Shown: piece after piece, positions 5,246 to 64,000 of the stretch
Layout: every line of letters begins with the position of its first letter
How positions within the stretch are numbered: position 1 is the stretch's first letter
Virus record (IMG/VR): IMGVR_UViG_3300002494_000005
Coordinates: 1-64,000 of that record
DNA length: 64,000 nucleotides
Source: a virus
Reading direction: 5' to 3' (one strand)
Program-made: the position numbers and the translations under genes
The notes under the pieces: generated by a model
What the model was told of the DNA's origin: nothing
The model's database searches: none
Seen by the model: the letters and a program-made list of their open reading frames with translations, nothing else

Positions 5246-5256
5246 TCGGAGGTGAG

Positions 5257-7625: not shown

Positions 7626-7637
7626 GCGAGGTGAAGC

Positions 7638-8246: not shown

Positions 8247-8261
8247 TGGATGAGGTGAAGC

Positions 8262-9428: not shown

Positions 9429-9439
9429 TAGTAGGGTAT

Positions 9440-9470: not shown

Positions 9471-9484
9471 CGTTGGAGGAAGGC

Positions 9485-9706
9485 ATGCGTCTACTGGTGA
9501 CTAACATTGTTTACATTGACCGACTTTACGTGCCTGGTGAATATGTGGAGGTAGACAAGGCCTTGGCCGACAGGCTTGTGAGCTTGGGCGTGGCTGAACC
9601 CGTTGTTGAACCTAAGGCTACTGAGCCTGTACCGGCTGAGGCACTTGAGTCGTCCCAGGAACAAGCGGCGGAGCCGCGGGATAAGCCTCGCCGCCGTAAG
9701 GAGTGA
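9485..9706 (+). CDS. Small head/neck-associated protein
   Basis: A 73-residue protein. Residues 1-45 form a compact domain (strand, YVPGEYVEVD, helix ADRLVSLGVAEPV). The remainder is a low-complexity, proline-, glutamate- and alanine-rich tail ending in a basic PRRRKE. Small proteins of this kind occur between capsid and connector genes in many siphophages; function unknown. A similar small gene lies at 11422-11610. The ATG at 9485 follows GGAGGAAGGC. Confidence 0.75.
   Translation: MRLLVTNIVYIDRLYVPGEYVEVDKALADRLVSLGVAEPVVEPKATEPVPAEALESSQEQAAEPRDKPRRRKE
9665..9677. repeat. GGA-triloop hairpin repeat
   Basis: GCGGC-GGA-GCCGC, 5-bp perfect stem, within the small gene at 9485-9706, in the reading frame giving AAEPR. 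Confidence 0.55.
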
Positions 9707-9709
9707 GAT

Positions 9710-10120
9710 ATGCTCGACCCAGACGCCTTTGTTCCCTATGTGTGGCAGCATATGCCTCCGGAAATAGCTAAGCCGGAAAACGTTACGGTAGACGGGCGTG
9801 CTGGGGTAACCACGACCACTTACAGGCAACTCGCGCGGTACGCTTTTTCTCAGGCTGACCAGCACCTGCGAGTGCGTTTTAACACCCCCCTGCCGGACAC
9901 TGTACCTGACGGTAGCACTTTGCAGTTTGCCCTGTCTCAGTTGATAGCCGCTTACATCTTGCGCCGCTTCGCCGCTTACCAGGCGTTGGCCAAGGACATG
10001 TTTGCCAACGCTTTCGCTACGCTAGACGAGTGGGCGGTACAAGTACTGCAAGGACGGAACGCGGTAGCTGGCCCCACTTTTGTGGAAGATAAGTTTCTAG
10101 CGGAGTTTCCTAAGCTATGA
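9710..10120 (+). CDS. Head-tail connector (adaptor) protein
   Basis: A 136-residue, mainly helical protein directly after the capsid module. Its size and helical pattern fit the gp6/gp15-type adaptors that dock below the portal. It overlaps the next gene by 4 nt (ATGA), as expected for a tightly coupled connector operon. Family assignment is from position. Confidence 0.65.
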   Translation: MLDPDAFVPYVWQHMPPEIAKPENVTVDGRAGVTTTTYRQLARYAFSQADQHLRVRFNTPLPDTVPDGSTLQFALSQLIAAYILRRFAAYQALAKDMFANAFATLDEWAVQVLQGRNAVAGPTFVEDKFLAEFPKL

Positions 10121-31773: not shown

Positions 31774-31782
31774 GGGGTGGGC

Positions 31783-32889
31783 ATGAGAATCAGCTTTTAT
31801 GGCTACGACAACGACGCGGACTTGGTGGTAACCCCACCAAACGAAATCTCTTATCGCGTACCAAACCCGGCTAAGTCTCTTACTACCGTAGCCAGAGGGT
31901 ACAGCTTGCGCAGATTACCAAACGTCAACGGCTTGCAGATAGAACTTAGCTGGGACGCTATACCCGAAAACGAACTAGCCGCTTTGGCGATTATACCGGC
32001 CGACGAGATTCATGAACTGGTCATGGAGTCCGCCACCTATTCAGGCGTCTTTTCAGAGCCGACCAGAGAAATGCAGCCGTACTTAACGTGGGACGGCCAA
32101 CCAACGTATCGGGCTAGACTGACGTTTTTCACAGTCAACGAGTTTGCGCTTGGAGAAGTAAAGCAAATATCGCCCCCCACCAAGCGTGTACTGTCCAACA
32201 CCACTTACCTCAATCAGGCTATCCGAAGCTACCCACCGCAACAGATTAGTCCAGCGTACACGCCTATAGTTCCGCGCGCTTCTACAGGCTTACCTCCAGG
32301 TGTTGGACATCTAGAAGGCTACCGTTGGACGTTCTATGAAGCCGATACCGCTACCGGTGTTTTACGATTTTTTGACGAGTCGTCTGAAGGTTGGTTTAAT
32401 GTCTCTGGTAGTCAGTCTTATCGTGACTGGTATAGCGTGTTTCAAAACAACGTGACGGCTAAAGCTACGTTACAACGAGTGTGGTTTAGTCCTGACTACC
32501 AATGGTCTATTGGTATGCTGCTGTATCGAGACCGAACGCTGGGTGATGGCCCTTTGCTGGAAGTGTGGGACAGCGGACATTATTTGTACTTACACAATGT
32601 GGGAGACACACTAAACATACAGTATATCCGTGTAAACGGAGTAGAGTATGTAGCGTCAAAGACACTAACTGGCGGTTATGACTATCTGTGGCTTCAATAT
32701 TCAGATGGTAACTTCACTTTGGGCTTTAACGGCAATATCAGTACTATAACACCCATCACCAGCGCTACAATTAACACCGACGTGAAGTTTATCCTGGGCG
32801 GTGGTGGAGTATTGCTAGACGACTTGGTGATAGTCAACTCTGTTCAGGTGGACATGGAAGTCGTGCGTAGGTGGCTGCTCGGTCTGTGA
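31783..32889 (+). CDS. Tail tip/baseplate protein
   Basis: A 368-residue protein in the tail-tip cluster. The first 140 residues resemble the Dit-like part of the previous gene (LPNVNGLQIELSWDAIPENELAALAI), so the two may be distant paralogues. The second half (about 180-360) looks like a LamG-type beta sandwich (WRFTFY-like strands, YLYLHNVGDTLNIQYIRVNG). Such sandwiches often bind cell-surface sugars. ATG 31783 follows GGGGGTGGGC; the in-frame GTG at 31777 is inside that site. Confidence 0.6.
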   Translation: MRISFYGYDNDADLVVTPPNEISYRVPNPAKSLTTVARGYSLRRLPNVNGLQIELSWDAIPENELAALAIIPADEIHELVMESATYSGVFSEPTREMQPYLTWDGQPTYRARLTFFTVNEFALGEVKQISPPTKRVLSNTTYLNQAIRSYPPQQISPAYTPIVPRASTGLPPGVGHLEGYRWTFYEADTATGVLRFFDESSEGWFNVSGSQSYRDWYSVFQNNVTAKATLQRVWFSPDYQWSIGMLLYRDRTLGDGPLLEVWDSGHYLYLHNVGDTLNIQYIRVNGVEYVASKTLTGGYDYLWLQYSDGNFTLGFNGNISTITPITSATINTDVKFILGGGGVLLDDLVIVNSVQVDMEVVRRWLLGL

Positions 32890-32897
32890 GGTGCTAT

Positions 32898-35462
32898 ATG
32901 GCTGAGCGTTTAATGTATCTTGATAGCTTTCATGACTTGACAGACGCTACTACCAACATGGAAGCCGGTAGCGTACTGATGCCGATGCCTCAGTTCCTTG
33001 GTCAAGGACAAATAAACGCTGGATTTTTGGCTAACACTGAAAACTATGGAAGCGGACTTTATATAACTAAAACTTCGTCGTACACCGGCATCAATGACAG
33101 ATGGTTTAACTTTTGGGTTAACGTACCGTTAGACAGCGGGTATAGCGTGCAAGTGCACCTAAGGAAGCCTAGTGATGGAGAAAACGACCCGCAGGTACAC
33201 ACTATAGTGGAGCCGGTCAAGCCCTTCATGTCGTTTGACGGCAGACAGCCTGGTACTCACCTTTTCTACCTTCTAGAGAGTGAGTGTGACATTGCAATTT
33301 CCCTTTTGACTTCGGACAACAGGACTGTACCGGATAGCGCCAACAGGATATTTAGAGCAGCAAACTGGCCTTCGGCTTTTTCTTGGACAAGTAAGCCGTT
33401 TCATCTTAGCAACTTTTTAACTGCTGTGACTAAATTGGAACTCAAACTTACCGACGGCAGCGTTCGTTCAGTGGCCCTTGACTGGTACCGCATAGGATAC
33501 ACACTGGGGTTCTTTTCAAACTACACCCCACCAAGTCTGACCTTTGACTCGGTGTGGAAAGCTAAACTTTATCTCGCAAAGGAACAAAGTGGGCCTTACG
33601 TGGAGTTTACTCGTCTTCCACTACCCTCTGAGGTAGTGCAGGGTGAGTACCGTTGGGCTAAGCTAGTCATCTACGGTAACGCGCCTACTACAACCGCCCC
33701 CATTGTCGGCGTAGAAGAAGTGGTAATTGGTCTGACAGAAGAGTACGCTTCTTCCGCTCCGACATTAGAAAAGCGCGTGACCAGGTCTAACCTGTACATT
33801 CCTAGGCTTCAAGTACTCGTCAACGGCGTAGACGTCACCAAATACGTCTCGTCTGTAAGTAACACGGAAATTACAATACTTGACAACTCGGACTGGGTGC
33901 GCAGCGTATTGCAGCAAGGCATGCCAATATCTGTAACGTTAGACGGTCAACTAATTGTTTCTGGTTTGCTTGGAGAAATGCGTAAAGAACAGTATCTAAA
34001 CGGCAATATTATTAGCGCTCATATTTTGCGTCCTATTGATTTCCTAGGCCGTAGCGAAGATGTGGAGATTATAGTGCAGCCTGATGAGCATACCGGCCAG
34101 TTACCATTTTCTGATGACCTTGGCTACATCGCACACCTGGTTAACGCGGTAGTTGCTGGAGCTAGAGTGTTGGCCGATGATAGGACTGGCTGGCGTCCAC
34201 TTTCCATATGGAAGCAGAGACCAGACACTAGAGCCGGAGAACACCGATTTGTGCAGTTGGACACCGACTTTGACTGGCTGCAGTTGTACGCCGTTAATAA
34301 CAGTTCGGTGCGTGAGAAGATAGAGCGTGTAGCTCAGGCTAATGGCTTCTTGGTCTCTTCTTTCGCTGGAAACGTGTACTTGACGCCAATTACGCCATAC
34401 CCAAACGATAACTTGCTAGACTTGTACAACCGGGCTAGGATACTGCACATGACTAAAGACGGTAGGTTTTTCCCTGAGGTGCGGTTTGGTGTGCCTGAGC
34501 TTAGCTATAGCGATTCCGCTCCAAAAGAGATAACCCTGATTGGTCTTGCTGATGCCGTGCCTGACACACTACCGTCGGTTCCTGTAATATTTAAGCGGGC
34601 AGACGGTACATGGACAGACAAACTCGCCATCAATAGTAACTACTCAAGAACACGAGCAGACACGTTTGTGCGCATAGACGGCCAGTACCACCGCGCCGTG
34701 TTTAAGAGCATTGACAAAGTGAATATTGAGCATGTAGAAGGCGTAGACTTGTCACCGTTCTTTCATAATCAGCCATACTACAAGCTCATATATGGCACCA
34801 TATCCGGCTACTACGGGATTACTGCCATAGAGTTTTGGATGTCTGGTGGATTTTTAGAATATGATGAGTTCTACCTATCAGCCGAAGGTACGCTGCTTTA
34901 TCGAGACAGCGGAACTAGGGACGACACAGCGTTGTGGAAAGCTACAGGACAGTACGCGCCTAAATGGGCGCAGCATAGTGACGGCACTAATTTAGTCGGA
35001 CATTTGCTAACTGTTGGAACTCGTTTAAACGGTCCTAAGGAGTCAATAGAAAACCCGTTTGTACCGAAATACGACACGCCTAACGGCGAACAAACTTACA
35101 CGCTAGGCAATTACACGGTGTACAAGAATTATGGTGATAGGTTAACCGACATGTTGGCTACTCGCAAAGCGCTAGAGCGTGTAGTGGCTACAATGCCGGT
35201 AGTCGGGCCGGCAGGATTCAAGGTCAATGACGTGGTCGGTATTGCCCGTCTGCCAGAAGACGGGATAGGCGGCGTTGTGCGTGAAGTGGACTTGTACCTG
35301 GTACTTGAGGAGCCGGAGATACATGTATCTCCCGGTGGTCAAGCGCGGAGCGTTGTACGCATGGGTTACGTAGGCACTGTCCGTGACGGTCAGCCTGTGT
35401 ATGACGACATGGCCGTCTCTTGGAGCAGCCTGCCACCAGGCACCGACACCTGGTACTTGTGA
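32898..35462 (+). CDS. Tail-associated (Tal/central tip) protein
   Basis: An 854-residue protein with a beta-rich N-terminal part. Near residues 295-385 a segment reads VLVNGVDVTKYVSSV, then VTLDGQLIVSGLLGEM, resembling the first domain of gp27/Tal-type baseplate hub proteins. Further beta domains follow, and the gene ends before a small OB-fold gene. It probably closes the tail tube and forms the hub of the tip. ATG 32898 follows GAGGTGCTAT; an in-frame GTG at 32871 lies inside the previous gene. Confidence 0.7.
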   Translation: MAERLMYLDSFHDLTDATTNMEAGSVLMPMPQFLGQGQINAGFLANTENYGSGLYITKTSSYTGINDRWFNFWVNVPLDSGYSVQVHLRKPSDGENDPQVHTIVEPVKPFMSFDGRQPGTHLFYLLESECDIAISLLTSDNRTVPDSANRIFRAANWPSAFSWTSKPFHLSNFLTAVTKLELKLTDGSVRSVALDWYRIGYTLGFFSNYTPPSLTFDSVWKAKLYLAKEQSGPYVEFTRLPLPSEVVQGEYRWAKLVIYGNAPTTTAPIVGVEEVVIGLTEEYASSAPTLEKRVTRSNLYIPRLQVLVNGVDVTKYVSSVSNTEITILDNSDWVRSVLQQGMPISVTLDGQLIVSGLLGEMRKEQYLNGNIISAHILRPIDFLGRSEDVEIIVQPDEHTGQLPFSDDLGYIAHLVNAVVAGARVLADDRTGWRPLSIWKQRPDTRAGEHRFVQLDTDFDWLQLYAVNNSSVREKIERVAQANGFLVSSFAGNVYLTPITPYPNDNLLDLYNRARILHMTKDGRFFPEVRFGVPELSYSDSAPKEITLIGLADAVPDTLPSVPVIFKRADGTWTDKLAINSNYSRTRADTFVRIDGQYHRAVFKSIDKVNIEHVEGVDLSPFFHNQPYYKLIYGTISGYYGITAIEFWMSGGFLEYDEFYLSAEGTLLYRDSGTRDDTALWKATGQYAPKWAQHSDGTNLVGHLLTVGTRLNGPKESIENPFVPKYDTPNGEQTYTLGNYTVYKNYGDRLTDMLATRKALERVVATMPVVGPAGFKVNDVVGIARLPEDGIGGVVREVDLYLVLEEPEIHVSPGGQARSVVRMGYVGTVRDGQPVYDDMAVSWSSLPPGTDTWYL
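35342..35354. repeat. GGA-triloop hairpin repeat, imperfect
   Basis: AGCGC-GGA-GCGTT with one G-U pair, in the Tal gene. Weakest listed member of the family. Confidence 0.35.
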
Positions 35463-35470
35463 GGTGAACT

Positions 35471-35713
35471 ATGAAGGAAGTTCTTGACCGCAGGATTGAC
35501 CACAAAGCTACCGTCTTGTCTGGCGTGGTAAAAACCGTGTTTCAGGACAACGGGTATACTTACTTGAAGGTGTTTGTTCCGACACTAGGCGTGATTCTGC
35601 CATATGTACGCACCTCATTACCGCACAACACACCACTAACTGACGCAAACAGAACATATCCGGTTGGTACTAAGGTCACCATCTTCAAACGCGCTGGACA
35701 GTGGTTTGTGTGA
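35471..35713 (+). CDS. Small OB-fold-like baseplate protein
   Basis: An 80-residue beta-rich protein (ATVLSGVVKTVFQDNGYTYLKVF, then VGTKVTIFKRAGQWFV) whose strand pattern resembles small OB-fold baseplate or tail-tip proteins. It follows the hub protein, with ribosome binding site GAGGTGAACT. Its exact role is unknown. Confidence 0.65.
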   Translation: MKEVLDRRIDHKATVLSGVVKTVFQDNGYTYLKVFVPTLGVILPYVRTSLPHNTPLTDANRTYPVGTKVTIFKRAGQWFV

Positions 35714-35719
35714 TATACT
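35711..35719 (+). promoter_or_regulatory. Extended -10 promoter for the lysis cassette
   Basis: TTTGTGTGATATACT contains TGA followed by TATACT (35714-35719), an extended -10 close to those at 1621 and 3699. No clear -35 is seen. It sits in the only gap before the lysis genes, so it could give them independent late expression. Confidence 0.6.
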
Positions 35720-35749
35720 GAAAGTGTAACACGTGTTTTGGGAGGAACT

Positions 35750-36091
35750 GTGCTGCCGACTCCAGGCTTGAAGATAGCTCAAGACAGATACGTGTGGAAG
35801 CTTACCGGGGAGATTCGTTCTCCTGTCAAGGGCAAGGTAATAAGTGTAGACAAGACCGCTAACGGCTATGTTGTGACCTTGCGAGTATTTGACCGATATG
35901 TGTTTGCGTTTCGCGGTCTAGAAGACGTGAAGGTACGACCGTTTGAGGAGGTTAGGTCAGGTAGGCCATTAGGCGTCGGGAAGGAGGTGGAGTACTGCGT
36001 GTTTCTGCGTGGTAAGGGAGACCCGTTGTTCCTCAAGCCTAAGCCAGGAGTAGCGGTACCGCTTGATGCGTTGCATTCTGTGGAGGTGTAA
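35750..36091 (+). CDS. Degenerate LytM/M23-like domain protein
   Basis: A 113-residue protein whose segment SPVKGKVISV...GYVVTLRVF (about residues 22-45) and later GRPLGVGKEV have the strand-and-turn pattern of M23/LytM peptidase domains. The zinc-binding histidines of that family are missing. It may bind peptidoglycan or act structurally; alternatively it is only a similar beta-fold. GTG 35750 follows GGAGGAACT; TTG 35738 is rejected. It lies directly after the extended -10 promoter. Confidence 0.6.
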   Translation: MLPTPGLKIAQDRYVWKLTGEIRSPVKGKVISVDKTANGYVVTLRVFDRYVFAFRGLEDVKVRPFEEVRSGRPLGVGKEVEYCVFLRGKGDPLFLKPKPGVAVPLDALHSVEV

Positions 36092-36093
36092 GG

Positions 36094-36282
36094 ATGCTGT
36101 GTTTGTTATGCGCAAACAATTTGGACTGTTTTATTAGAGAACAGGTAGAACTATACGCTAAGTCATTGAACACCGAAGTGGCGGTAGTTCAATGCGAAGC
36201 CTTTGAATCGGCAGTTTCTCAGATTGTAGAGGACATTCCCGATGAGGAGTTAGCTGAGCTTTTTGGGGAGGCCTTGAAGTGA
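36094..36282 (+). CDS. Small cysteine-containing hypothetical protein
   Basis: A 62-residue protein with four cysteines (positions 3, 6, 12 and 34) in a set of proteins otherwise poor in cysteine. The N-terminal CLLCANNLDC could be a metal or disulphide site. The C-terminus is acidic. It overlaps the endolysin gene by 4 nt (GTGA), so it is coupled to lysis gene expression. Function unknown. Confidence 0.65.
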   Translation: MLCLLCANNLDCFIREQVELYAKSLNTEVAVVQCEAFESAVSQIVEDIPDEELAELFGEALK

Positions 36283-36818
36283 AGCACCCGTTCTTTGAAG
36301 AGTTGATTCCACACGCTCGGGAGATGCAGCGGAGGACTGGCATTCCCGCTTCCGTGGCATTAGCTCAAGCGGCCTTAGAGAGTGGTTTTGGCAAGTCTCT
36401 GCTTTCCAAACAGGCCAAGAACCTGTTTGGCATTAAGACCGGTAAAAGTTGGAAGGGCGAGATTATTACTTTGCCTACCACCGAGTACTACCAAGGCAGG
36501 CCAGTACGCGTCGTAGCTAGATGGCGGAAGTACCACTCTTACCTAGACGCTTTTCTTGACCTTGCTCGTGTGTACTACAACGGGCTTTACGAGGAAGCCT
36601 TGCCTTATCGGCAGAACCCACGAGAGTTTATCAAGCGGGCAGCTAAGACTTACGCTACCGACCCGAAGTACGCGGAGAAGGTAATCGCGCTCATCGACAA
36701 ATATCGGCTAGACCAATACGACGTACCACCAAGTGAATGGGTATTGGACCATAGCATCGTACCAGAAACCTGGTATCGTGCTTGGGCTAAGGTGTATGGT
36801 GAGGAGGTGAAGGTGTAA
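36279..36818 (+). CDS. Endolysin, glucosaminidase (FlgJ-like)
   Basis: The 179-residue product belongs to the mannosyl-glycoprotein endo-beta-N-acetylglucosaminidase family of phage and flagellar muramidases. It has IPASVALAQAALESGFGKS (residues 22-40, with the presumed catalytic Glu34) and NLFGIK near 47-52. Downstream are KYHSYLDAF and YATDPKYAEKVIALI typical of the family. It cleaves peptidoglycan glycan strands. No signal peptide is visible, so it depends on a holin. GTG start overlaps the preceding stop, with GGGGAGG upstream. Confidence 0.92.
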   Translation: MKHPFFEELIPHAREMQRRTGIPASVALAQAALESGFGKSLLSKQAKNLFGIKTGKSWKGEIITLPTTEYYQGRPVRVVARWRKYHSYLDAFLDLARVYYNGLYEEALPYRQNPREFIKRAAKTYATDPKYAEKVIALIDKYRLDQYDVPPSEWVLDHSIVPETWYRAWAKVYGEEVKV

Positions 36819-37177
36819 TGGACACTCTAGCTCTGATTACCACGTTGGCAGGACTGGTTGTACCCATCGCGGAGTTTATTGGTGGGAAGCTGCTTAAGTT
36901 GGATGGTGCTAAGGCTAGGCTGCTAAGCTGGCTTATCGGCGTGCTTCTTGGCCTTGGCGCGGGTGCTATTGGCTTGGCACCTGACCTGATGCAGGGCGCG
37001 TTGATTGGGTTCCTTGCAGCCCTGGTAGCCAACGGAGTCTTCACCATGGACCAGGTGAAGCGACTCCTAGAGGCCCTCAAGCTGCGGGAGCCTGAGTCTG
37101 TAACAACGGCTCCACAGGGCACTGATGCCAAGCCTATTAACAGGCGGGTGGAAGACATCCTGCGTAACCGGCGATGA
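36818..37177 (+). CDS. Holin-like membrane protein
   Basis: A 119-residue protein with three hydrophobic segments (about residues 4-22, 35-55 and 58-75) and a charged C-terminal tail with many R and E. Its place directly after the endolysin and its size fit a holin or antiholin. Together with the TcdE-like protein at 29444-29926 this phage would have two holin-type proteins. It starts by TAATG overlap with the endolysin gene. Confidence 0.75.
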   Translation: MDTLALITTLAGLVVPIAEFIGGKLLKLDGAKARLLSWLIGVLLGLGAGAIGLAPDLMQGALIGFLAALVANGVFTMDQVKRLLEALKLREPESVTTAPQGTDAKPINRRVEDILRNRR

Positions 37178-37461
37178 AGCGTTTGCTAGTGGCCTTGATG
37201 GTAGCCCTGGGCCTAGGAATGGCTCAGGGCTACGCCCTTGTAGAAGCGGCTACCAACGGGGCGTACCGTCTATACTTGGCTTATGACTTCTCAGTCGCGG
37301 GTTTTGTACTAAGCCCTTACACAGAAGGACGGTACGGGCCTGATGGGTATGACTTAGAGGCTGGACTTGAGTTTTACGCCCAAGACTGGAGGCTTGGTAT
37401 TGCTTGGAGCGCGCGATACGGTCTAATCGCTCGCTCAACCTGGATATTGCGCTGGAGGTAG
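37174..37461 (+). CDS. Exported small beta-rich protein
   Basis: A 95-residue protein with a clear signal peptide (MKRLLVALMVALGLGMAQG, cleavage likely after residue 18-19). The mature part is rich in alternating aromatic and small residues (YRLYLAYDF, LSPYTEGRYG, LEAGLEFYAQDWRLGIAWSA), a pattern of short outer-membrane-type beta strands. Located in the lysis cassette, it may act at the outer membrane of a diderm host as a spanin substitute. No lipobox is seen. It overlaps the previous gene by 4 nt. Confidence 0.7.
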   Translation: MKRLLVALMVALGLGMAQGYALVEAATNGAYRLYLAYDFSVAGFVLSPYTEGRYGPDGYDLEAGLEFYAQDWRLGIAWSARYGLIARSTWILRWR

Positions 37462-37462
37462 T

Positions 37463-37660
37463 ATGGCCAAGAACTGGATTCAACGTGCCATTAAGAAGCC
37501 TGGCTCGTTGCGCGCTTATGTAAAGCGCAAGTATGGCAGCGCTGGGTTTACCAAGGATGGCACCATTAAGAGAGAGGTGCTAGACCGCTTAGCCAAGCGC
37601 AACGACACCATTGGCCGCAGGGCTAGACTGGCTAAGGCGTTGCGGAGAATGAGCAAGTGA
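37463..37660 (+). CDS. Small basic conserved phage protein
   Basis: A 65-residue, very basic protein beginning MAKNWIQRAIKKPGSLRAYV and containing KRKYGSAGFTKDGTIKREVL. This arrangement (KKPG(S/A)LRA, YGxxGFTKxGTI, then RRARLAK) is a recurring small phage and prophage protein, probably nucleic-acid binding or virion-associated; function not established to my knowledge. It is the last gene of the rightward block, with ribosome binding site GGAGGTAGT. Confidence 0.8.
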   Translation: MAKNWIQRAIKKPGSLRAYVKRKYGSAGFTKDGTIKREVLDRLAKRNDTIGRRARLAKALRRMSK

Positions 37661-37664
37661 TGAC

Positions 37665-37697
37665 AGGCCGGGGGCTTAAACCCCCGGCCTTTTCGTT
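37665..37697 (+). terminator. Strong terminator ending the rightward block
   Basis: AGGCCGGGGG and CCCCCGGCCT form a 10-bp stem with a 6-nt loop, followed by TTTCGTTT. It separates convergent gene blocks and could hinder leftward polymerases as well, though no U tract exists on that strand. Confidence 0.92.
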
Positions 37698-37703
37698 TAT
37701 CGG

Positions 37704-38153
37704 CTAGAGGGCACGCGTGAGGTTAATGTAGATGCCGAGCTCTATGTTGGTCAGGTACTCCGCTAAACTAGGTAAGAGTACAGGCAGCTGGTCTTCGGTG
37801 GTTTTCAGCAAGTACGGAAACAGGCGATAAACGCCGGAAGGGTAGACAGCGGGTATGAGCACAAGGATGTAGTAGGTGTCTTCAGATGGATTCTGGCGCT
37901 TTACAAACGCCTTAGCTTCTTCGATGGCGAACTTGTAAGCCTGCTCCAGATAGTCCTCGGTCATTGGGTTGGCAAACCAACGACTGGCAGCGCGAGGGTT
38001 TACAAGCTCGCATTCGCCCTTAATCACCAAGACAGGTATCTCTTCTGGAAACACATCTCGTTCACCCTTCCAGAGTGGCCGGTACTGGCTGACAATGAGA
38101 TTAGGCTCTACTAGCTCAAAGGCTTCTCCGAGTTCAAGCGGCAACGTTTTCAT
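37704..38153 (-). CDS. Hypothetical protein, 149 aa
   Basis: Not recognised. It is a mixed alpha/beta soluble protein with VLVIKGECELVNPRAASRWF in the middle and a hydrophobic-alternating C-terminus. The stretch VIKGE is reminiscent of a nuclease ExK-like strand, but no upstream acidic partner is obvious, so no function is claimed. It is the last gene of the leftward block; its ATG (after GAGGAGGAACTAC) lies within the 3' end of the polymerase gene. Confidence 0.75.
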   Translation of the reverse strand: MKTLPLELGEAFELVEPNLIVSQYRPLWKGERDVFPEEIPVLVIKGECELVNPRAASRWFANPMTEDYLEQAYKFAIEEAKAFVKRQNPSEDTYYILVLIPAVYPSGVYRLFPYLLKTTEDQLPVLLPSLAEYLTNIELGIYINLTRAL

Positions 38154-40392
38154 GTAGTTCCTCCTCAGGTATCGGCGATTCAGCTTTGGACATGGTGCGC
38201 TTGAGTTCTGGCTCGGCGTCTAGCTTAACCCCGTTTACCTCGCGTACCATGGCCTCCAGCATAATTTGCATCACGCGCTTAGCGTGCTTGATGTTAGCTT
38301 GGACGCCTATCTCATCGTGCACTTGGTAAGCCACCCACGCGTCTAACCCTTCTTCCCTGAGCCTGCGGTCAATCTCCACAATGGCCTCTTTGACGACAAA
38401 TGCCGACAGGCCCTGGATAAGGGCGTTCTGACAAGTGCGCAAAGCGGCGTGGTATTGGCGAGACACCTCTCGGTCGTTGGCGATGATGTGAGGCCACAAC
38501 TCTTTCCTAGCCCGCCTAAGCTTTTCAGGCAGGTCTAGTCGCTTGATGTAGCCGTAGATGGGGTACTCCACGTACCCTTTCTCTTCCAGCTCCTTGTACA
38601 CTTCCTCCATCCAGGTCTTGACCCTAGGATACGCCTCAAAGTAGCCGTCAATGAGCTGCTCGGCTTCGTCTTCAGTGAAACCGAAGTTACGCACCAGAGT
38701 GTATCGCGTACCACCGTAGATGAGGGCGAAGTTAACTGTCTTGGCCTTCTGCCTGTAGTCCTTGTACTTCGCCTTAAACTCCTTGTCGTCCAAGTCTAAG
38801 CCTACCTTGAAGGCGTACCTGGCAGTGTAGGCGTGTAAGTCTCGTCCCTGGTTAAGCAAGTTGCGCATGGTTTCATCACCACTGACAGCGGCGCACATCA
38901 CAAGCTCCATGCTGGTGTAATCGGCGGTCACAAAGACGTAGCCGGGGTCAGCCTCAAAGGCCTTGCGAATGTCCACGCCTTGCAGGTATGGCTTTTCGGC
39001 CACCTCTTCAGGGAGGAGACGAGGTAGATTCTGTAGGTTGGGGTCAGAGCTAGACATACGCCCTGAGACGGTACCCACGGTGTTGAAAAACGTGTGAACG
39101 CGGCTATCGGGGTCTAGCTTTTCTATCAGAGAATCGGTGTAGGTGGACACCAACTTCTTGATGGCCTCGTACTCCAGTTTGGCCTGGATGAAGGCATAGG
39201 CGGTGTCCTTTAATTCTAAAGCCCGTCTTGGCGTGAGTTTACGCTGCAGAATGGTTTGCAGAGCAGAGCGGCTGGTAGAAGCCTCACCCGAGTCGGTGGC
39301 TTCTACCACCGGGAATCCAAGGTCTTCGAAGAGTATCTTACGAAGCTGAACGGCTGAGTTAAGCACTGTATCCAGGTTGTACACGCCCATCAGTTTTTCG
39401 GGTGGTAGCAGTTCGGCGAGGTAGCCATAAGCTTTGTTCTTAGTCTCTTCTAGCCGGTTTAGCAGAAGTTCCTTGACTTGGCGCAGATGTTCTTGATTGA
39501 CCAAAACACCACGATAAGTGGCCCTGGTCATTACGTCGTTGACGGGGAGTTCTATTTTCTGGTAAAGCTCATCGAGCTTGGGATGCATGTCCAGAAAGAC
39601 CTGGACACGTTCCCACAGGGCGTAGGTGTTCATTACGTCGTCTAGAGCGTATTCAGCTGCAATGTTTACTGGAAAGTAGCGGAAATCGTTAGGAAATGTA
39701 CCGGCGTATTCTACCAGTCCGCGAGCGCGGAGCATTCCGAACACGCTGGAGATTAGTTTGTAAAGCAGGCTATACGATACAGCGCCGCGGTGAATACTCT
39801 CCTTGAAGTAGGCGTACACCTGGTCAAGCCAGTCTTCCCTAAGCCGGTACACTCGCTTACGGTAACGCCTACCGGCCTTGTTCAAGACGTACTCAAAGTC
39901 CTCGGTGAACAGAGACAGCTGTGGTTCCACGAACGAGCTAGTCTGTTCGGTGATGCCCAACGCCGTCTTGGCCCACTCCTTCAAGCTAGAAGGATGGTTC
40001 TCGTCCATGAGGTGCAGGGCAATCATGGTGTCGTCACCGTAGGACTGCTCAAAGGGAATGCCTAGTGTCTGGGCCAACACTAGCCGGTCATAGCTAGCGT
40101 TGTGGTAGATTGGACGCACATGTTGCAGGAGCTCGGCGAGGAAGTCCTTAACGCCATCCAAGGACACGTTCTCCGGCTGGTATTCCAATCCGCCAAAGTT
40201 TTCATGGCCGACAGGAATGTAATAGCCCTCGCTTGGCGAAGAAGCGAGGGCTAGACCGACAAGACGAAACTCGGGCTTGAAGATTTCTAATCCGGTAGTC
40301 TCGGTGTCTATGGCTACTCGATTAGTTCCTTTTAGCCGTTTCAGCAGGCTGGATAGTTCCGCTGGCTTCACCACCGTGTACTTTCTGTCCAT
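38134..40392 (-). CDS. polA: DNA polymerase I, family A
   Basis: The 752-residue replicative polymerase. The 3'-5' exonuclease domain is intact by motif: Exo I VAIDTETTGLE (near 27-37), Exo II YHNASYDRL (near 92-100), Exo III YALDDVM (near 245). The polymerase domain has motif A DYTSMELVM, motif B RQKAKTVNFALIYG and motif C YQVHDEIG. There is no 5'-3' exonuclease domain. A phenylalanine occupies the O-helix selectivity position (NF in motif B), as in Taq and E. coli Pol I. ATG 40392 has GGAGGAACACT upstream. The gene begins inside the previous gene (71-nt overlap). Confidence 0.95.
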   Translation of the reverse strand: MDRKYTVVKPAELSSLLKRLKGTNRVAIDTETTGLEIFKPEFRLVGLALASSPSEGYYIPVGHENFGGLEYQPENVSLDGVKDFLAELLQHVRPIYHNASYDRLVLAQTLGIPFEQSYGDDTMIALHLMDENHPSSLKEWAKTALGITEQTSSFVEPQLSLFTEDFEYVLNKAGRRYRKRVYRLREDWLDQVYAYFKESIHRGAVSYSLLYKLISSVFGMLRARGLVEYAGTFPNDFRYFPVNIAAEYALDDVMNTYALWERVQVFLDMHPKLDELYQKIELPVNDVMTRATYRGVLVNQEHLRQVKELLLNRLEETKNKAYGYLAELLPPEKLMGVYNLDTVLNSAVQLRKILFEDLGFPVVEATDSGEASTSRSALQTILQRKLTPRRALELKDTAYAFIQAKLEYEAIKKLVSTYTDSLIEKLDPDSRVHTFFNTVGTVSGRMSSSDPNLQNLPRLLPEEVAEKPYLQGVDIRKAFEADPGYVFVTADYTSMELVMCAAVSGDETMRNLLNQGRDLHAYTARYAFKVGLDLDDKEFKAKYKDYRQKAKTVNFALIYGGTRYTLVRNFGFTEDEAEQLIDGYFEAYPRVKTWMEEVYKELEEKGYVEYPIYGYIKRLDLPEKLRRARKELWPHIIANDREVSRQYHAALRTCQNALIQGLSAFVVKEAIVEIDRRLREEGLDAWVAYQVHDEIGVQANIKHAKRVMQIMLEAMVREVNGVKLDAEPELKRTMSKAESPIPEEELHENVAA

Positions 40393-47199: not shown

Positions 47200-47223
47200 G
47201 GCGGTACCGGCTTCAGTACCGCC
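47200..47223 (-). terminator. Leader hairpin or terminator
   Basis: GGCGGTAC and GTACCGCC (8-bp perfect stem, 8-nt loop) lie between the promoter at 47246 and the nuclease gene start at 47176. No U tract, so perhaps a leader structure or a read-through barrier from upstream. Confidence 0.5.
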
Positions 47224-47245
47224 AAACTAGAGTTTACTTGAATTT

Positions 47246-47254
47246 AGTATAACA
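47246..47254 (-). promoter_or_regulatory. Leftward extended -10 promoter
   Basis: Read leftward, TTTGTGTTATACT contains TGT followed by TATACT, the same form as the rightward promoters at 1621, 3699 and 35714. It would drive the nucleotide metabolism genes from the nuclease gene onward. Confidence 0.6.
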
Positions 47255-47261
47255 CAAACAA

Positions 47262-47813
47262 CTATGTGTTTAGTTTCTTTAGCAAGCGCAACTCGTAGTC
47301 GAAGACGCTAGTAGTCCGCCTTTGACCGGCGGGGTCAAAGAAGTAGAAGACGCCGGGTTCTAACTCCATCAGTTCATCGTGGTCATAGTAACGGTATAGT
47401 CTTGTAAGTACGTCTGGTAACTCCTTTCCATCGTGTAACGCTCGGAAGAAGTTAAATTTAGTCAGTCTCTCTCCAGGTAACACTTCAAGCAGGTGTATCA
47501 GGTTGTTGTCCCCCTGCCAAGCCGGTACCGTCATCACTACCCTCTCGTAGACAACTCCGACTTGCTCGTCGTACTCGCGTTCCTTTAACGACACAAAACA
47601 ACGAAGGTGACGTTTACCGCGGGCAATGTAGTGGACTTCGGTAAACCTTGACGGTACCATATGGCCCCAATAGCTGAATATGGTAGGCAGTTCACCGCGC
47701 TTGTAAGCGTCCTCGTCGTAGAGTTTGAAGTCCGAAAACCATTCAGCTGTGTCGCTCACAGACCACGCTGTCAGGTCTATGTACCCTTCCACAATGGACA
47801 GGTCGTCACGCAT
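47262..47813 (-). CDS. Hypothetical protein, 183 aa
   Basis: Not recognised. A soluble alpha/beta protein with many Y, D, E and R residues and no named motif. The central part has several likely strands (YERVVMTVPAW, LIHLLEVLPGERL) and the C-terminus is a basic helix. It overlaps the primase gene by 37 nt, so it belongs to the replication operon. Confidence 0.75.
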   Translation of the reverse strand: MRDDLSIVEGYIDLTAWSVSDTAEWFSDFKLYDEDAYKRGELPTIFSYWGHMVPSRFTEVHYIARGKRHLRCFVSLKEREYDEQVGVVYERVVMTVPAWQGDNNLIHLLEVLPGERLTKFNFFRALHDGKELPDVLTRLYRYYDHDELMELEPGVFYFFDPAGQRRTTSVFDYELRLLKKLNT

Positions 47814-55617: not shown

Positions 55618-56184
55618 TTATCCGTTGGTCAGTAACTCCTTCCAGAGGTTTGACAGTACACGCTCAGGTCTATTTCCGTTGACCTTAGTGAACAGATTCT
55701 TTGCCTTTCTCTTGAAGCCTAGTGGTCGGTACACTTGTGGTCCGTACACCATGACGAACTTAGCGTCAGGTGATTCTTCAAACGCTATGACCTGTCTAAC
55801 AGACACGTTTGGAGGCAAAGCGCTAACCATGTCAGCCGGAAGCAAGTACGCCCTCTCTGCTTGAAAGACTAGAGCAGCGTCTAGCTTTTGCAAAATTCCC
55901 CTGTTCAAAAACTCTGTGACAGAACCTTCTATGTCGTTAAGTGGAAACAGGTAACCGCTACGCGTGACACCAAGTCCAAAGTTGTGCACATGCTTGGCTA
56001 CCGCAGGTACCTCATCTGGATTTAGCAGCCTACCGTCAACTGTGACTGTCAACACCACGTCATCATAAGTGTGGGGGTGGCTGATGAGAAGCATACGAGC
56101 GATGAAGCCAACGTCTATAAATCCTGCCAGCGTGACCCTGTATCCAAGCGACCTAAGATAGTCGACTATGTGCTCAAGAGTCAT
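55618..56184 (-). CDS. Hypothetical protein, 188 aa (unknown cluster)
   Basis: Not recognised. Soluble alpha/beta protein starting MTLEHIVDYLRSLGYRVTLA; the C-terminus is basic (FKRKAKNLFTKVNGNRP). It is the first gene of the unknown cluster, directly downstream of the structured repeat element at 56210-56321. ATG 56184 follows AGGAGGTGTTC. Confidence 0.75.
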   Translation of the reverse strand: MTLEHIVDYLRSLGYRVTLAGFIDVGFIARMLLISHPHTYDDVVLTVTVDGRLLNPDEVPAVAKHVHNFGLGVTRSGYLFPLNDIEGSVTEFLNRGILQKLDAALVFQAERAYLLPADMVSALPPNVSVRQVIAFEESPDAKFVMVYGPQVYRPLGFKRKAKNLFTKVNGNRPERVLSNLWKELLTNG

Positions 56185-56209
56185 GAACACCTCCTGACAC
56201 CTCTAGAAT

Positions 56210-56321
56210 GCCCCTATAAGCCCGTAAAATGGCTTATACGGCCCTGGAAGAGTTGCCCTAGTGTTAGACACTAGGGTTATCACCCAAGGCCGTATAAGCC
56301 ATTATAGCGGGTTACAGGGCT
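56210..56321. repeat. Structured inverted-repeat element, copy 1
   Basis: Two 38-nt imperfect arms (56210-56247 and 56284-56321) pair over nearly their whole length, with core ATGGCTTATACGGCC/GGCCGTATAAGCCAT. The loop carries an inner hairpin CCCTAGTGTTAGACACTAGGG. The element fills the gap between two leftward genes and runs 2 nt into the stop codon of the VWA protein gene. A related copy lies at 63395-63566. It may be an RNA structure, a bidirectional terminator or a small mobile repeat. Confidence 0.8.
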
Positions 56322-57477
56322 ATTGCAGCTTGGTCACCTTACCGAAGGGTACTTTTTCAATTTCAATGCTATTGGGTGTGAGTACCCACAGCACAGGGTA
56401 GTCAGGTTCTCGTTCGGGAAAGAGACCATAGCCGTCGGTGAAGAACATTAGCATCCGAGGCCTATCATCATTCAAGCGTTCAAACACAGGGCGAAAGTCG
56501 GTACCACCACCTCCCCTGAACTTAACCCGCTGAGCGAAGCTGTCAATGTCGTTTTCATCCAGCTCCACGTCTTCGTGCACCGCTGCATCACAGGTGAGAA
56601 CGCGAAGCTTGATGTGGTCAAACTGCTGCAGAAGTCCGACCACTTCAGACAGGTAAAGCTTAAGCTCATCTGGGCTAATGGAGCCGGAAGTGTCAAAGGC
56701 CACAGCCAGCTCCACCTGTTCGCCTCCAAGAGACGGGAGGACAAAGTCTGCGTCGTGGAACCGCCTGTCAGGTGGAGTGAAAGTAAAGTCGGCGGGGAAA
56801 GTTTCAATTAAGTCCGCCAATTCACGCCTCCAATCGCGAGGCGGGTTGAGTACACCATCCACCACCCTCTCAATGCCTGCCGGTAGCGTTCCACGAAGCT
56901 TAGCGGCTTGCATCGCTTGAGCTAGTCTCTGTTTCACTTCGGCGACAACGTGGTCGTTACCGACAGAAGCGTCTTCCTGAAGAATGTCACCAAACAGGCT
57001 GAAGAGGTCATCATCTTCCTCTTCTCCTTCCTCCTCTTCCAGCTTGGCGTATACCTGCTCAGCGGACATGTTGGCAAACTTATCATCAAGCAGGGCATCG
57101 TCCGGCAGATAAAACTTAGGCTTGCCAAACGTTTTGGCAACCCTGTCAGCCTCCTGCTTGATAAGCCAGTTGATGGCGTAGTCAGCTGCCCAATTCCACC
57201 GCCTAGGCTTCCTACCCCGACGGCGTGGAACGTGCAGGAAGGCAATGTGCAACAACTCATGCATCAAGACAGCGGTGAACTCTTCCCTGGACAAGGAGTT
57301 AGCGAACTCGGTATTAAAGTAGACGTTTAGCCCGTCAGTCCAGGCAGTAGGCATAGGAGACTCACTTGGTTCCTTGAAGCGCACGTCGGTCTGCAAAGCC
57401 AGAGTGGCGAAGAAAGGTGAACTAATAGACAATATGGTCCTAGCGTACTGAAGCTTCTCTTTTACACTTACGCTCAT
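56320..57477 (-). CDS. VWA-domain metallopeptidase-like protein (MoxR partner)
   Basis: The 385-residue product has an N-terminal zinc-peptidase-like domain with HELLHIAFLH (residues 73-82). A middle part has a very acidic stretch (EEEEGEEEDDD, near 150-160). A C-terminal von Willebrand A domain has the MIDAS motif DTSGS (near 250), then GGGGTDF and FFTDG. This layout matches the DUF2201-type proteins encoded with MoxR AAA ATPases; one lies 0.8 kb upstream. The pair may remodel or mature a protein complex. ATG 57477 follows GGGGAGGTTACC. Confidence 0.9.
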   Translation of the reverse strand: MSVSVKEKLQYARTILSISSPFFATLALQTDVRFKEPSESPMPTAWTDGLNVYFNTEFANSLSREEFTAVLMHELLHIAFLHVPRRRGRKPRRWNWAADYAINWLIKQEADRVAKTFGKPKFYLPDDALLDDKFANMSAEQVYAKLEEEEGEEEDDDLFSLFGDILQEDASVGNDHVVAEVKQRLAQAMQAAKLRGTLPAGIERVVDGVLNPPRDWRRELADLIETFPADFTFTPPDRRFHDADFVLPSLGGEQVELAVAFDTSGSISPDELKLYLSEVVGLLQQFDHIKLRVLTCDAAVHEDVELDENDIDSFAQRVKFRGGGGTDFRPVFERLNDDRPRMLMFFTDGYGLFPEREPDYPVLWVLTPNSIEIEKVPFGKVTKLQ

Positions 57478-57493
57478 GGTAACCTCCCCGATT

Positions 57494-57697
57494 CTAAGCC
57501 GTGGGTTTGCGGCTAAACCCGTCAATGACCGTTTGGTTATCGTCAATTGACTCTGATGTAACGACGCTTGTATTATTCGGCAGAATGGAATGCAAGTACA
57601 AGGAGGCAAAAGTCTGCAGCGTCATGGACACTACCTGCAGTATAGCAGCTATTGCTACGACAAACACTAGCACAACGGCCAGCAGAGTTTCCCACAT
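57494..57697 (-). CDS. Small membrane protein, 67 aa
   Basis: A single hydrophobic segment (LLAVVLVFVVAIAAILQVVS, about residues 4-23) followed by a polar tail. ATG 57697 is chosen because the full site GGAGGTGAT lies 8 nt upstream; earlier in-frame starts at 57706 and 57709 lie inside it. It sits between the RNase H and VWA genes. A TGCTATACT sequence (TATACT at 57639-57644) inside it could be a promoter for the VWA gene. Function unknown. Confidence 0.65.
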   Translation of the reverse strand: MWETLLAVVLVFVVAIAAILQVVSMTLQTFASLYLHSILPNNTSVVTSESIDDNQTVIDGFSRKPTA

Positions 57698-61199: not shown

Positions 61200-61576
61200 G
61201 ACTCACCTCCTGTCTAGTTATCAAGATACTTAAGCAAGTAGCGGTGATGAAGTTAAGCTAGCTAACTTATTAAGCTGATTAAGTAATATGACTCAGTTAG
61301 CTTAGTAAGTTATCTAGTTAGCTTTAATAATCGACTGTTAATGTCTTAGATATTTCTGATTTGATAAATGAACGTAACTAGATATTAATGTTCAATATTA
61401 GCAAGTAGTGGTGATTAAGTTAAGTTAACTATCTAGCTAGATTAATTTATCTACCGCTACCATCTAGGATAACTAGCTAGATTAATTAATCGAACTAAGT
61501 AACTAGTTAAAGTCACAATTATGTTACTTCTAGCCAGATTAACTAAACAGGCACTATTGTCTAATATTAAACGCTA

Positions 61577-61609
61577 AGACGGCAACGTCTTTAAACGACG
61601 TTGCCGTCT
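61577..61609. other. 13-bp perfect hairpin in early leader
   Basis: AGACGGCAACGTC and GACGTTGCCGTCT with a 7-nt loop. It lies about 50 nt downstream of the leftward promoter at 61661, so it would be in the 5' leader of the early mRNA, or act as an attenuator. Confidence 0.6.
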
Positions 61610-61660
61610 ATAGCTAATTCTGTTTAGTTATTATTCTGTAGCCCCGTTTCTCCGCCATTA

Positions 61661-61689
61661 TGTATAGCATGTATTTTTGTTTTTGTCAA
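61661..61689 (-). promoter_or_regulatory. Leftward sigma-70 promoter P1
   Basis: TTGACA (61684-61689), a 17-bp spacer and TATACA (61661-61666) preceded by TGC. It is followed by TAATGGCGGAGAAACGGGGC, a sequence shared with P2. It would drive the early genes from the micropeptide at 61199 onward. Confidence 0.85.
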
Positions 61690-61928
61690 TAGGTCAATAG
61701 CGAGTAGCTGGTATGAAAAGTGTGAATGGAAAATGTTGTCGGGTTGTGTGAGATATCAATGTTGGGTTGTGTGAGGTGAACTGAAATTGCTGACGTCCCC
61801 CGAAACTATCAAACCCATCACTATAAAATCCAAAGCACTATCTATTTCATACTTACTTGACACATGTCAACTACCTAATCCTGACCCGCTACTTGCTTAA
61901 CGTGTTTAACCGAATTAACTATGTTCGC

Positions 61929-61964
61929 GTGGTCAGTGTCGTCTTCAATAACAACACTGACCAC
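61929..61964. other. 11-bp hairpin
   Basis: GTGGTCAGTGT and ACACTGACCAC with a 14-nt loop, related in sequence (CAGTGTCGT) to the hairpins at 62192 and 62334. Confidence 0.5.
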
Positions 61965-62048
61965 ACTCACTAGCAGCTAGTGTTAGCTACTATGATAGCT
62001 GACTTGGTTAACTTACTTCCAGCCCCGCTTCTCCGCCATTATAATTAT

Positions 62049-62077
62049 ATCATATAGCTTGTTTTTTTGTTTGTCAA
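62049..62077 (-). promoter_or_regulatory. Leftward sigma-70 promoter P2
   Basis: TTGACA (62072-62077), a 17-bp spacer and TATGAT (62049-62054); a TATAAT follows 5 bp further. Downstream is TAATGGCGGAGAAGCGGGGC, nearly identical to the start of the P1 transcript, so both may share an operator or leader element. Confidence 0.75.
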
Positions 62078-62191
62078 GCGTCACTATCATATGTCAGTAA
62101 CGTATTTTTTGCTTGTCAAGAGGTAATATTAACGTGTGATATTAGCACACTACACTATGCCGCTACCGTCATAATACCAGTTGTGATAATA

Positions 62192-62224
62192 GCGACTGGT
62201 GTCGTTTTAAGCGACACCAGTCGC
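62192..62224. other. 13-bp perfect hairpin
   Basis: GCGACTGGTGTCG and CGACACCAGTCGC with loop TTTTAAG. Same family as 62334-62367. Confidence 0.6.
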
Positions 62225-62333
62225 GTGACACGAATAGCTGACAGTCGTCATAGCTGTTAGCTTTAACGACACTGACTACACTGTTATGAACTACATTGAC
62301 CAGCTACTTGCTTTGAACTTAGCCGATAAATAA

Positions 62334-62367
62334 CGACTGGTGTCGTCCTTGAAGACGGCACCAGTCG
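62334..62367. other. 14-bp hairpin
   Basis: CGACTGGTGTCGTC and GACGGCACCAGTCG (one G-U pair), loop CTTGAA. The compensated difference from the 62192 hairpin suggests the structure is what is kept. Confidence 0.6.
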
Positions 62368-62590
62368 CGAAATAGCTATTAGACGGTAGCGGTGATAATA
62401 GCGCTGATTTATGGCTGATGTTAGCTAACTATCCTGACCCGATACTGTCTTAACTGATTTGCTAGACGGTAGCGGTTGGGATTGGACGACACTGCTGGGA
62501 TTAACGACATTGACTTGCAGCATCGTTGTTGTGAACGACATACTCTGCGTTACTCCACCGTTTACCGTGAGCCCACTGTTTACCGCATAG

Positions 62591-62626
62591 AGCCGAGTTA
62601 GCCCCTTGCGGGGCTAACCGGCTTTT
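62591..62626. terminator. Bidirectional terminator-like hairpin
   Basis: AGCCG-A-GTTAGCCCC and GGGGCTAAC-CGGCT pair around TTGC (GCAA tetraloop on the leftward RNA). It starts at the stop codon of the leftward gene 62625-63320. TTTT follows on the + strand. Confidence 0.75.
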
Positions 62627-63320
62627 ACACCTCTCCGAATCCAGTTATGCTTAGGGCAGTACTTGCCATCTTGGAGGCTATTAGTTTAGCCTTCTCAGTA
62701 GAGTACCAGCCCCTTAGGAGTTCACCAGACACCCCGAGCAGAGTGTCAGTGGCGAACTCAATGTGTCTCTCTTCGGCTAGATGGGTAACCGAATAGTTAG
62801 CGGTCACCTCATCTCCTAGCAGCTCAACGATAACCTCAAGGGCCGTCAGGCCCTTGAAGTTACCTCCCCGAGTAACCCTGAAGCCGAATGTGAGTCTGCC
62901 TGGAGCGCTTTCTATCGTGAAACTACCACGGCCAGTAGCCGTGGTGTGGTGCCACACGCACCCGTACTGTCCAACCTTGACTCCCGGGCTGTTAATGCCC
63001 GGGATGTCGTCTTTCATGTAGGTGTGCCTAGTTAACTCAGCAATAGTATCACCCTCTAGAACGAGGTCAAGAAAGTCTTTTTGCGCAGCCTCGCGAATAA
63101 GGTTCGCGAGGCCAGTGGCTTCTCTCGCGGACATTCCCTTCAGATAGAAGGGATTGTCTGGGAGCGCGGCCAACAAGGCCGCGCCCTCCAGTCCCCTTCC
63201 GACCACTTCTACAAAAGAGGGCCAGGTACCCCCAATGTACCTGGCCCACCTATGACCGAGATAGCTAGCGACGGCCACCACAATGGCGGCCAAAGTGAGG
63301 TCGTACTTGCTCTTGTTCAT
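62625..63320 (-). CDS. Hypothetical membrane-anchored protein, 231 aa
   Basis: Not recognised. One N-terminal hydrophobic segment (LTLAAIVVAVASYLGHRWA, about residues 8-26) suggests a membrane anchor with a large soluble domain. The domain has a helical part (about 60-95) and a beta-rich part (about 110-190, for example GRLTFGFRVTRGG). ATG 63320 follows AGGTGAAC. It lies upstream of the AT-rich region and is transcribed towards it, ending in a strong hairpin. Confidence 0.75.
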   Translation of the reverse strand: MNKSKYDLTLAAIVVAVASYLGHRWARYIGGTWPSFVEVVGRGLEGAALLAALPDNPFYLKGMSAREATGLANLIREAAQKDFLDLVLEGDTIAELTRHTYMKDDIPGINSPGVKVGQYGCVWHHTTATGRGSFTIESAPGRLTFGFRVTRGGNFKGLTALEVIVELLGDEVTANYSVTHLAEERHIEFATDTLLGVSGELLRGWYSTEKAKLIASKMASTALSITGFGEV

Positions 63321-63350
63321 GTTCACCTACCTTCCGGGTCTGTTCACTTG

Positions 63351-63389
63351 AAGGGTTGGGTTATCCGGAAACACCCAACCCTTTGTTTT
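63351..63389. terminator. 11-bp hairpin followed by TTTGTTTT on + strand
   Basis: AAGGGTTGGGT and ACCCAACCCTT form a perfect stem; T-rich sequence follows on the + strand. It may stop antisense transcripts, or act as a barrier between the flanking leftward genes. Confidence 0.5.
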
Positions 63390-63394
63390 AAATA

Positions 63395-63566
63395 CCCCTG
63401 TAGCCCCGTAAAACGGCTTATACGGCCTTGGAGACAGTGCCCTAGTGGTAGACATTAGGGCAAGAGTACCAAAATCAGGATTATGCCGATACTCATCGGC
63501 AAAAGCCCGATTTTGGCATCTTTAGGTCCAAGGCCGTATAAGCCATTTTACGCGGTTATCCACAGG
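63395..63566. repeat. Structured inverted-repeat element, copy 2
   Basis: Outer arms (63395-63431 and 63528-63566) share the core ACGGCTTATACGGCCTTGG/CCAAGGCCGTATAAGCC with copy 1 at 56210-56321. The first inner hairpin TGCCCTAGTGGTAGACATTAGGG is almost the same as in copy 1. A second inner arm pair (CCAAAATC/GATTTTGG), enclosing GCCGATACTCATCGGC, is present only here. It fills the gap between two leftward genes. Confidence 0.8.
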
Positions 63567-63588
63567 CTGGTGATAGCCTGTGGATAAC
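63555..63588. other. Inverted pair of DnaA-box sequences in a 14-bp hairpin
   Basis: GTTATCCACAGGCT (63555-63568) and AGCCTGTGGATAAC (63575-63588) are perfect inverted repeats, each containing TTATCCACA, the consensus DnaA box. It lies directly after the stop of the gene at 63595. It could bind host DnaA or simply be a terminator hairpin. Confidence 0.55.
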
Positions 63589-63594
63589 TTTCAC

Positions 63595-63837
63595 TTACTT
63601 ACACTCGCTGAGTATTTTCGCTAGTAATGACCGAACAATGTTTTGGTCAGCCTTGGGCAACTCATAAAGAGTTGCCAAAAGCTTTTTCCGCTCCTGAACG
63701 GTTACCTGCTCTGGAGCGAGCAGCATCACGCCGACCACTTGGTATAGGTCGGCGTACAACTCCCCTAGCCGACTGCCGTCATGGAATGACGCCAATCCGG
63801 CTAGGATATCCAGCAGCACTGTTTCTTTATCACGCAT
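63595..63837 (-). CDS. Hypothetical helical protein, 80 aa
   Basis: Not recognised. Entirely helical pattern (LLDILAGLASFHDGSRLGEL, then VTVQERKKLLATLYELP and QNIVRSLLAKIL), acidic-basic balanced, no membrane segment. ATG follows GAGGGTGAGAG and overlaps the stop of the upstream frame by 8 nt. Could be a small regulator or DNA-binding protein. Confidence 0.7.
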   Translation of the reverse strand: MRDKETVLLDILAGLASFHDGSRLGELYADLYQVVGVMLLAPEQVTVQERKKLLATLYELPKADQNIVRSLLAKILSECK

Positions 63838-64000
63838 CTCTCACCCTCTCCAGAGCTTGGTCCAGCCACTCTGGAGTTATCCGATAACCGTCCACCGTTC
63901 CGGTATAGTGGACGGTACCGGTGGGAGACACTTCCCACCGGTCCCAATAGTCCATGGAACCCCATCCGCTGAATACGGATGAGCTGCCGTCCTCACGCAG
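63830..64000 (-). CDS. C-terminal part of a protein cut by the window edge
   Basis: A leftward frame is open from the window edge to TGA at 63830-63832 (56 codons seen). The visible part reads ...MDYWDRWEVSPTGTVHYTGT and ends WLDQALERVRDA: acidic, aromatic, with a helical end. It overlaps the next gene by 8 nt, as is usual in this operon. The start lies outside, and no family is recognisable. Confidence 0.65.
   Translation of the reverse strand: MREDGSSSVFSGWGSMDYWDRWEVSPTGTVHYTGTVDGYRITPEWLDQALERVRDA

Follow-up and report, generated by a model that had tools for sequence, protein, structure and literature searches.

A long-arm structured element at gene junctions of a phage related to Thermus phage phiFa, and the hyper-structured pre-early region of its genome

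Locus and copies of the element

The window analyzed here is a 64,000-nt stretch, positions 1 to 64,000 of the IMG/VR virus record IMGVR_UViG_3300002494_000005, which is 67,481 bp long. The closest protein relative of the phage is Thermus phage phiFa (terminase 81%, RNA polymerase 54%), and proteins of the window match those of P23-45 and TSP4 too, mostly more distantly. The left terminal repeat of phiFa, whose genes are early genes (PMC7515739), is the counterpart of the right end of the record. There, past the window edge at genome 65245-67332, lies the phage RNA polymerase gene, whose 695-aa product carries a DHDGDD motif; its Pfam RdRP match is weak and below threshold (E 0.0035), and the phiFa homologue is annotated as RNA polymerase. 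At window ~47212-47265, as judged from the flanking ORFs, the XerD-like integrase and tRNA-Lys of phiFa seem to be missing from the syntenic place.

The first copy of the element (56207..56324, minus strand) is a short form, with arms at 56207-56247 and 56284-56324 that are 80% complementary and enclose a conserved inner hairpin, CCCTAGTGTTAGACACTAGGG, at 56256..56276. It starts at the stop codon of a leftward gene (56320..57609, minus strand, DUF2201 metallopeptidase/VWA-like), which lies within the outer end of the element, and the AGGAGG ribosome-binding site of the downstream gene (55618..56190, minus strand, product unknown) follows ~10 nt past it. The second copy (63391..63566, minus strand) is a long form with two inner hairpins and arms at 63401-63432 and 63527-63558 (91% complementary). 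Its first inner hairpin, CCCTAGTGGTAGACATTAGGG (63440..63460), is kept from copy 1; the second is held in a 66-nt insert (63461..63526) that has a 64-nt counterpart in copy 3 and is absent from copy 1. Copies 1 and 2 share 81% identity over their first 70 nt. Upstream of copy 2 is a gene encoding 80 aa (63595..63837, minus strand), a homologue of phiFa gene 41, and downstream a hyper-structured gene encoding 233 aa of unknown product (62625..63326, minus strand). On the mRNA strand a perfect 14-bp hairpin (63555..63588) stands directly before copy 2 and a perfect 11-bp hairpin (63351..63383) directly after it.

The sequence-only reading had described a two-copy element with long arms and an inner hairpin at 56210-56321 and 63395-63566, placed in gaps between leftward genes, with no U tract and too elaborate for a simple terminator. 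Its architecture and placement are borne out: arms of ~40 nt surround one or two inner hairpins, both copies occupy gaps between leftward genes, and no T run follows either copy on either strand, which departs from an intrinsic terminator, as does the arm length. The count of two is superseded: a third copy lies in this genome at 65016-65175, in the opposite orientation, 1 kb beyond the window and ~70 nt downstream of the RNA polymerase gene. The element also occurs in related phages. The hairpin after copy 3 (genome 64961-64989) and one at phiFa 5011-5037 keep a CCCACCC loop and differ in stem letters on both sides, which suggests that this stem is conserved by pairing.

Folding, arm pairing and distribution

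Most folds were predicted at 37 °C, and selected tests were run at 70 °C. On the mRNA strand, copy 1 gave -72.6 kcal/mol (z -10.5) and copy 2 -103 kcal/mol (z -11.7), and none of 200 shuffles was as stable in either case. The longest uninterrupted helix is 21 bp in copy 1 and 26 bp in copy 2. Both strands of the element fold well; the mRNA strand gives the better fold in six of seven copies, and mismatches within the element show no bias for GU over AC on that strand. In the alignment of seven copies, drawn from related sequences, the CTAGTG.TAGACA.TA of the inner hairpin is invariant and 9 of 46 arm pairs carry double-sided changes, compared with 1-3 in versions with a slid partner, a control that favors the tested pairing because the structure was derived from one of the aligned sequences. 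The alignment scores higher for covariation than every slid version, and 15 of 500 shuffles reach its score; the count of doubly changed pairs is unremarkable against shuffles (162 of 500). Pairing of the arms thus has moderate support.

An orthologous element, without annotation, is present in the Oshimavirus phages P23-45, G20c, P74-26 and stolb2, with one short-form copy per unique genome and 64-75% identity to the copies found here. Stolb3 keeps half of it, a single arm with some of the hairpin and then a polypyrimidine tract; in stolb1 the search did not find it. Faint, decayed counterparts were detected by nhmmer in TSP4 and phiFa, the one in phiFa at the site that corresponds to copy 3. 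A covariance-model search of phages had been proposed from the sequence, and the model, built from the same seven copies, matches the three copies here and, beyond this genome, one each in P23-45, G20c, P74-26 and stolb2; it gave no match in stolb1, stolb3 or phiFa, and TSP4 reaches E 1.1 only. Further copies and moderate covariation, whose joint absence was to have counted against the element, were thus both found. The data define a structured element family of thermophilic phages, unannotated until now, that is tied to a region-wide signal described below.

Wider searches gave no copy in plasmids, nor in bacterial genomes searched by the arm pattern. The 44 arm-pattern matches in bacterial genomes are attributed to chance (an estimated ~60 were expected); none was in Thermus and none carried the element. 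In IMG/VR, the matches to the inner-hairpin pattern were chance hits, all to a single unrelated site present in near-identical copies; an arm-pattern match was also by chance, and a further match was P23-45 itself; a scan of IMG/VR with two neighboring proteins gave no match. Rfam returned nothing above the gathering score, the best hit over the element being a plant miRNA family that scored 29 bits, below its cut-off of 54.

The copies within this genome are 83% alike, compared with 64-75% to those of Oshimavirus, and the three were therefore probably duplicated inside the lineage of this phage. Such multiplication would suit a MITE-like or otherwise duplicated selfish palindrome settling between genes, as the sequence-only reading had allowed. 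This genome has three dispersed copies with terminal inverted repeats, one of them inverted, whereas relatives have a single copy per unique genome, and this is weakly in keeping with that idea. The remainder does not fit: no copies were found outside the phage family, a Pfam scan of ten neighboring proteins gave no transposase, no target duplications were seen, neither was a clean empty site at the phiFa junctions, and most Oshimavirus phages share an orthologous position, as does phiFa at copy 3. We consider a selfish origin of this kind improbable.

Candidate roles at transcript junctions

All recognizable copies, in five phages, lie at most ~70 nt past a stop codon, and a simple, strong hairpin precedes each of them except copy 1. 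In TSP4 and the Oshimavirus phages this preceding hairpin carries a U tract, whereas it has none before copies 2 and 3 or in phiFa. A hairpin with a U run also recurs past the ends of P23-45 early genes; it probably corresponds to the 26-nt termination motif that PMC10770324 describes for the intrinsic terminators of these genes. Like those terminators, the element is a hairpin placed after genes; unlike them, it has arms of ~40 nt and no U tract, and in P23-45 it follows such a hairpin. At the phiFa junction homologous to copy 1 there is an ordinary intrinsic terminator with a U tract. The element of the Oshimavirus phages resembles that of the present phage in sequence, inner hairpin, paired arms and a site after an early gene, and differs in being single, short and preceded by the U-tract hairpin.

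Based on these features, we speculate that in Thermus phages of the P23-45/phiFa type the element works in cis as a transcript-junction hairpin module, fixing or protecting 3' ends and perhaps doing so through RNase III-type processing or by helping termination; this is the reading we favor, tentatively and with somewhat less than even confidence. The working form would be the RNA strand. Once the upstream gene was transcribed, its RNA would fold into a ~40-bp stem closed by one or two inner hairpins. This stem would fix the 3' end of the upstream mRNA, either by aiding termination or as an RNase III-type site in read-through RNA, and could block 3' decay at ~70 °C. The predicted fold stability, the position after stop codons, the kept pairing of the arms and the U-tract terminator of phiFa at the copy 1 junction all argue for a transcript-junction role, as do the better folds of the mRNA strand and the mRNA-strand bias of the surrounding region in three of four phages. 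Of the roles named by the sequence-only reading, protection or processing of mRNA ends is retained in the reading favored here, and the phiFa terminator makes a bidirectional terminator possible. The uninterrupted helices of 21 and 26 bp, between co-directional genes, reach the ~20 bp or more expected of an RNase III-type site, and we count this length in favor of the same reading. In phage T7, RNase III processing sites are long imperfect hairpins between co-directional early genes, with no U tract; the element resembles them in these traits, although the T7 sites are shorter and cleavage here is putative. Against a transcript-junction role, most Oshimavirus transcripts may stop before reaching the element, since there it follows the U-tract hairpin; the element lacks a GU-over-AC bias, its covariation is only moderate, and its absence from stolb1 indicates that it is dispensable there.

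The good folds on both strands, the missing mRNA-strand mismatch bias and the conservation of the dyads in sequence as well as in pairing would also be explained if the element acted as DNA, with a part in DNA entry, replication or terminal-repeat processing that it plays as a cruciform or as a dyad bound by protein. The P23-45 copy lies inside the 2735-bp terminal repeat, 280 bp from the repeat end and beside a triplex tract, and copy 2 is close to the place of the repeat end of phiFa. However, the distance to repeat ends varies among the phages (copy 1 is ~7 kb off), the element is absent in stolb1 and halved in stolb3, and a DNA site would leave its constant position after stop codons unaccounted for. 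A known DNA signal of this type is the injection stop signal of T5, palindromic DNA in the pre-early terminal repeat (PMC13250531). The element is likewise palindromic DNA associated with a pre-early terminal repeat, near the repeat end in P23-45 only, but it is present here in multiple copies, the T5 region has no excess folding, and the likeness is not one of sequence. Overall, a DNA-level site appears to us doubtful, with a smaller share of our confidence than the transcript-junction hairpin.

The hyper-structured pre-early region

In a scan of whole genomes, excess folding peaked in the pre-early region of all four phages considered: genome 62.0-67.5 kb of the present phage, phiFa 1-8000, P23-45 1-10000 and TSP4 30000-40000. 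Within the window the region covers 62190..64000 (minus strand) and it continues to the record end at 67481, including copy 3 and the polymerase gene; copies 2 and 3 are its largest structures. Excess folding inside the regions relative to outside gave p values from 0.003 to 3e-13, for regions picked after the scan was seen. Perfect hairpins (stem of at least 9, loop 3-12) number 31 in genome 62-67.5 kb, compared with 19 in the other 62 kb, and the phiFa terminal repeat is likewise hairpin-rich. The mRNA strand is significantly more structured than its complement in P23-45, TSP4 and the present phage, and the difference is not significant in the phiFa region. The hyper-structured 0-10 kb of P23-45 matches the 9-kb region bound by its virion polymerase. 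The T5 terminal repeat, when checked, showed no hyper-structure.

The signal extends through coding sequence. The polymerase gene contains 25 perfect hairpins with stems of at least 8, against a mean of 0.93 and a maximum of 3 in sixty shuffles preserving protein and codon usage; its homologues hold 8 in phiFa (0.8 expected), 7 in TSP4 (0.5 expected) and none in P23-45, where the gene still folds better than shuffles (z -7.5). The 80-aa gene family provides a natural test: the gene is structured in the two phages where it lies inside the region (this phage, z -6.3; phiFa, z -3.5) and not in the two where it lies outside (TSP4, z -0.4; P23-45, z +0.7). Within the polymerase gene, this phage and phiFa do not share hairpin sites (4 of 25, p 0.28), so what is kept is the property rather than the individual hairpins. 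Single-mismatch stems carry GU more often than AC (19 and 8), with a borderline p of 0.05. The pattern recalls the genome-scale ordered RNA structure of RNA viruses in its excess folding through coding sequence with no fixed hairpin positions, but here it belongs to a DNA phage and to the first-expressed region only. No description of pre-early hyper-structure was found in the literature searched, two older P23-45 genome and transcription papers lying outside that search.

The same region raises the question of whether the element is a functionless by-product, the largest of many hairpins left by a selective or mutational pressure that fills pre-early DNA with inverted repeats, as quasi-palindrome correction in replication might. 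The hyper-structure does span coding and non-coding DNA alike, copies 2 and 3 sit within it, and the weak sharing of polymerase-gene hairpin positions with phiFa would be expected. We nonetheless think a by-product quite unlikely: the element keeps its sequence identity across phages where other hairpins do not, copy 1 lies outside the region, and a mutational cause acting on DNA alone is hard to square with the bias toward mRNA-strand structure in three of four phages.

Protection by type III CRISPR depends on targeting of the phiFa pre-early region; strong protection comes only from spacers against terminal-repeat genes, and a spacer against gene 36, at the border, protects partly (PMC7515739). 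According to PMC10770324, phiFa-type phages are without a virion polymerase and their pre-early genes must be expressed in another way. We speculate, with low confidence, that phages of the P23-45/phiFa type keep the entire pre-early message set hyper-structured as RNA, with the element as its largest unit, and that this conceals the earliest transcripts from the effectors of type III CRISPR and from RNases at ~70 °C, or that the unusual two-barrel RNA polymerases of these phages need it to peel the RNA off its template. Any shielding by the regional structure is incomplete, since some spacers that target the structured polymerase gene do protect. Whether pre-early RNA structure serves as a message shield or as an aid to phage polymerases is a directly testable question.

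Other repeats were observed in these genomes. Upstream of successive pre-early genes of phiFa (891-969, 1181-1256 and 1529-1605) are paired hairpins with complementary loops, TAGCCGCCCA and GGGGCGGA, possibly a kissing pair or a promoter-like unit. A small hairpin, GGCGCTCCGCGCC, often followed ~8 nt later by GGAGG or ATGG, recurs in phiFa-type phages: on the minus strand of the window at 40962, 45387, 54161 and 60917, in the genome end segment L013 (where 4962 corresponds to genome 64961) at 4844 and 4891, and in phiFa at 5112, 5164, 16813, 18177 and 31086. It could be the GC-rich promoter or a leader element. Related palindromes (AAGCTAGCTTCGTAGTA...) cluster just past the terminal repeat of phiFa, at 6740-7060, where they may mark an origin or a stop for DNA entry. 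Long AT-rich non-coding stretches with repeats lie at window ~61200-62200 (minus strand) and P23-45 2893-2975, where TTGACA and TATAAT-like boxes stand before ATGGCGGAGAAGCGGGGCTGG. This is a short reading frame (MAEKRGW...) that is conserved, with two occurrences in the present phage and one in P23-45.
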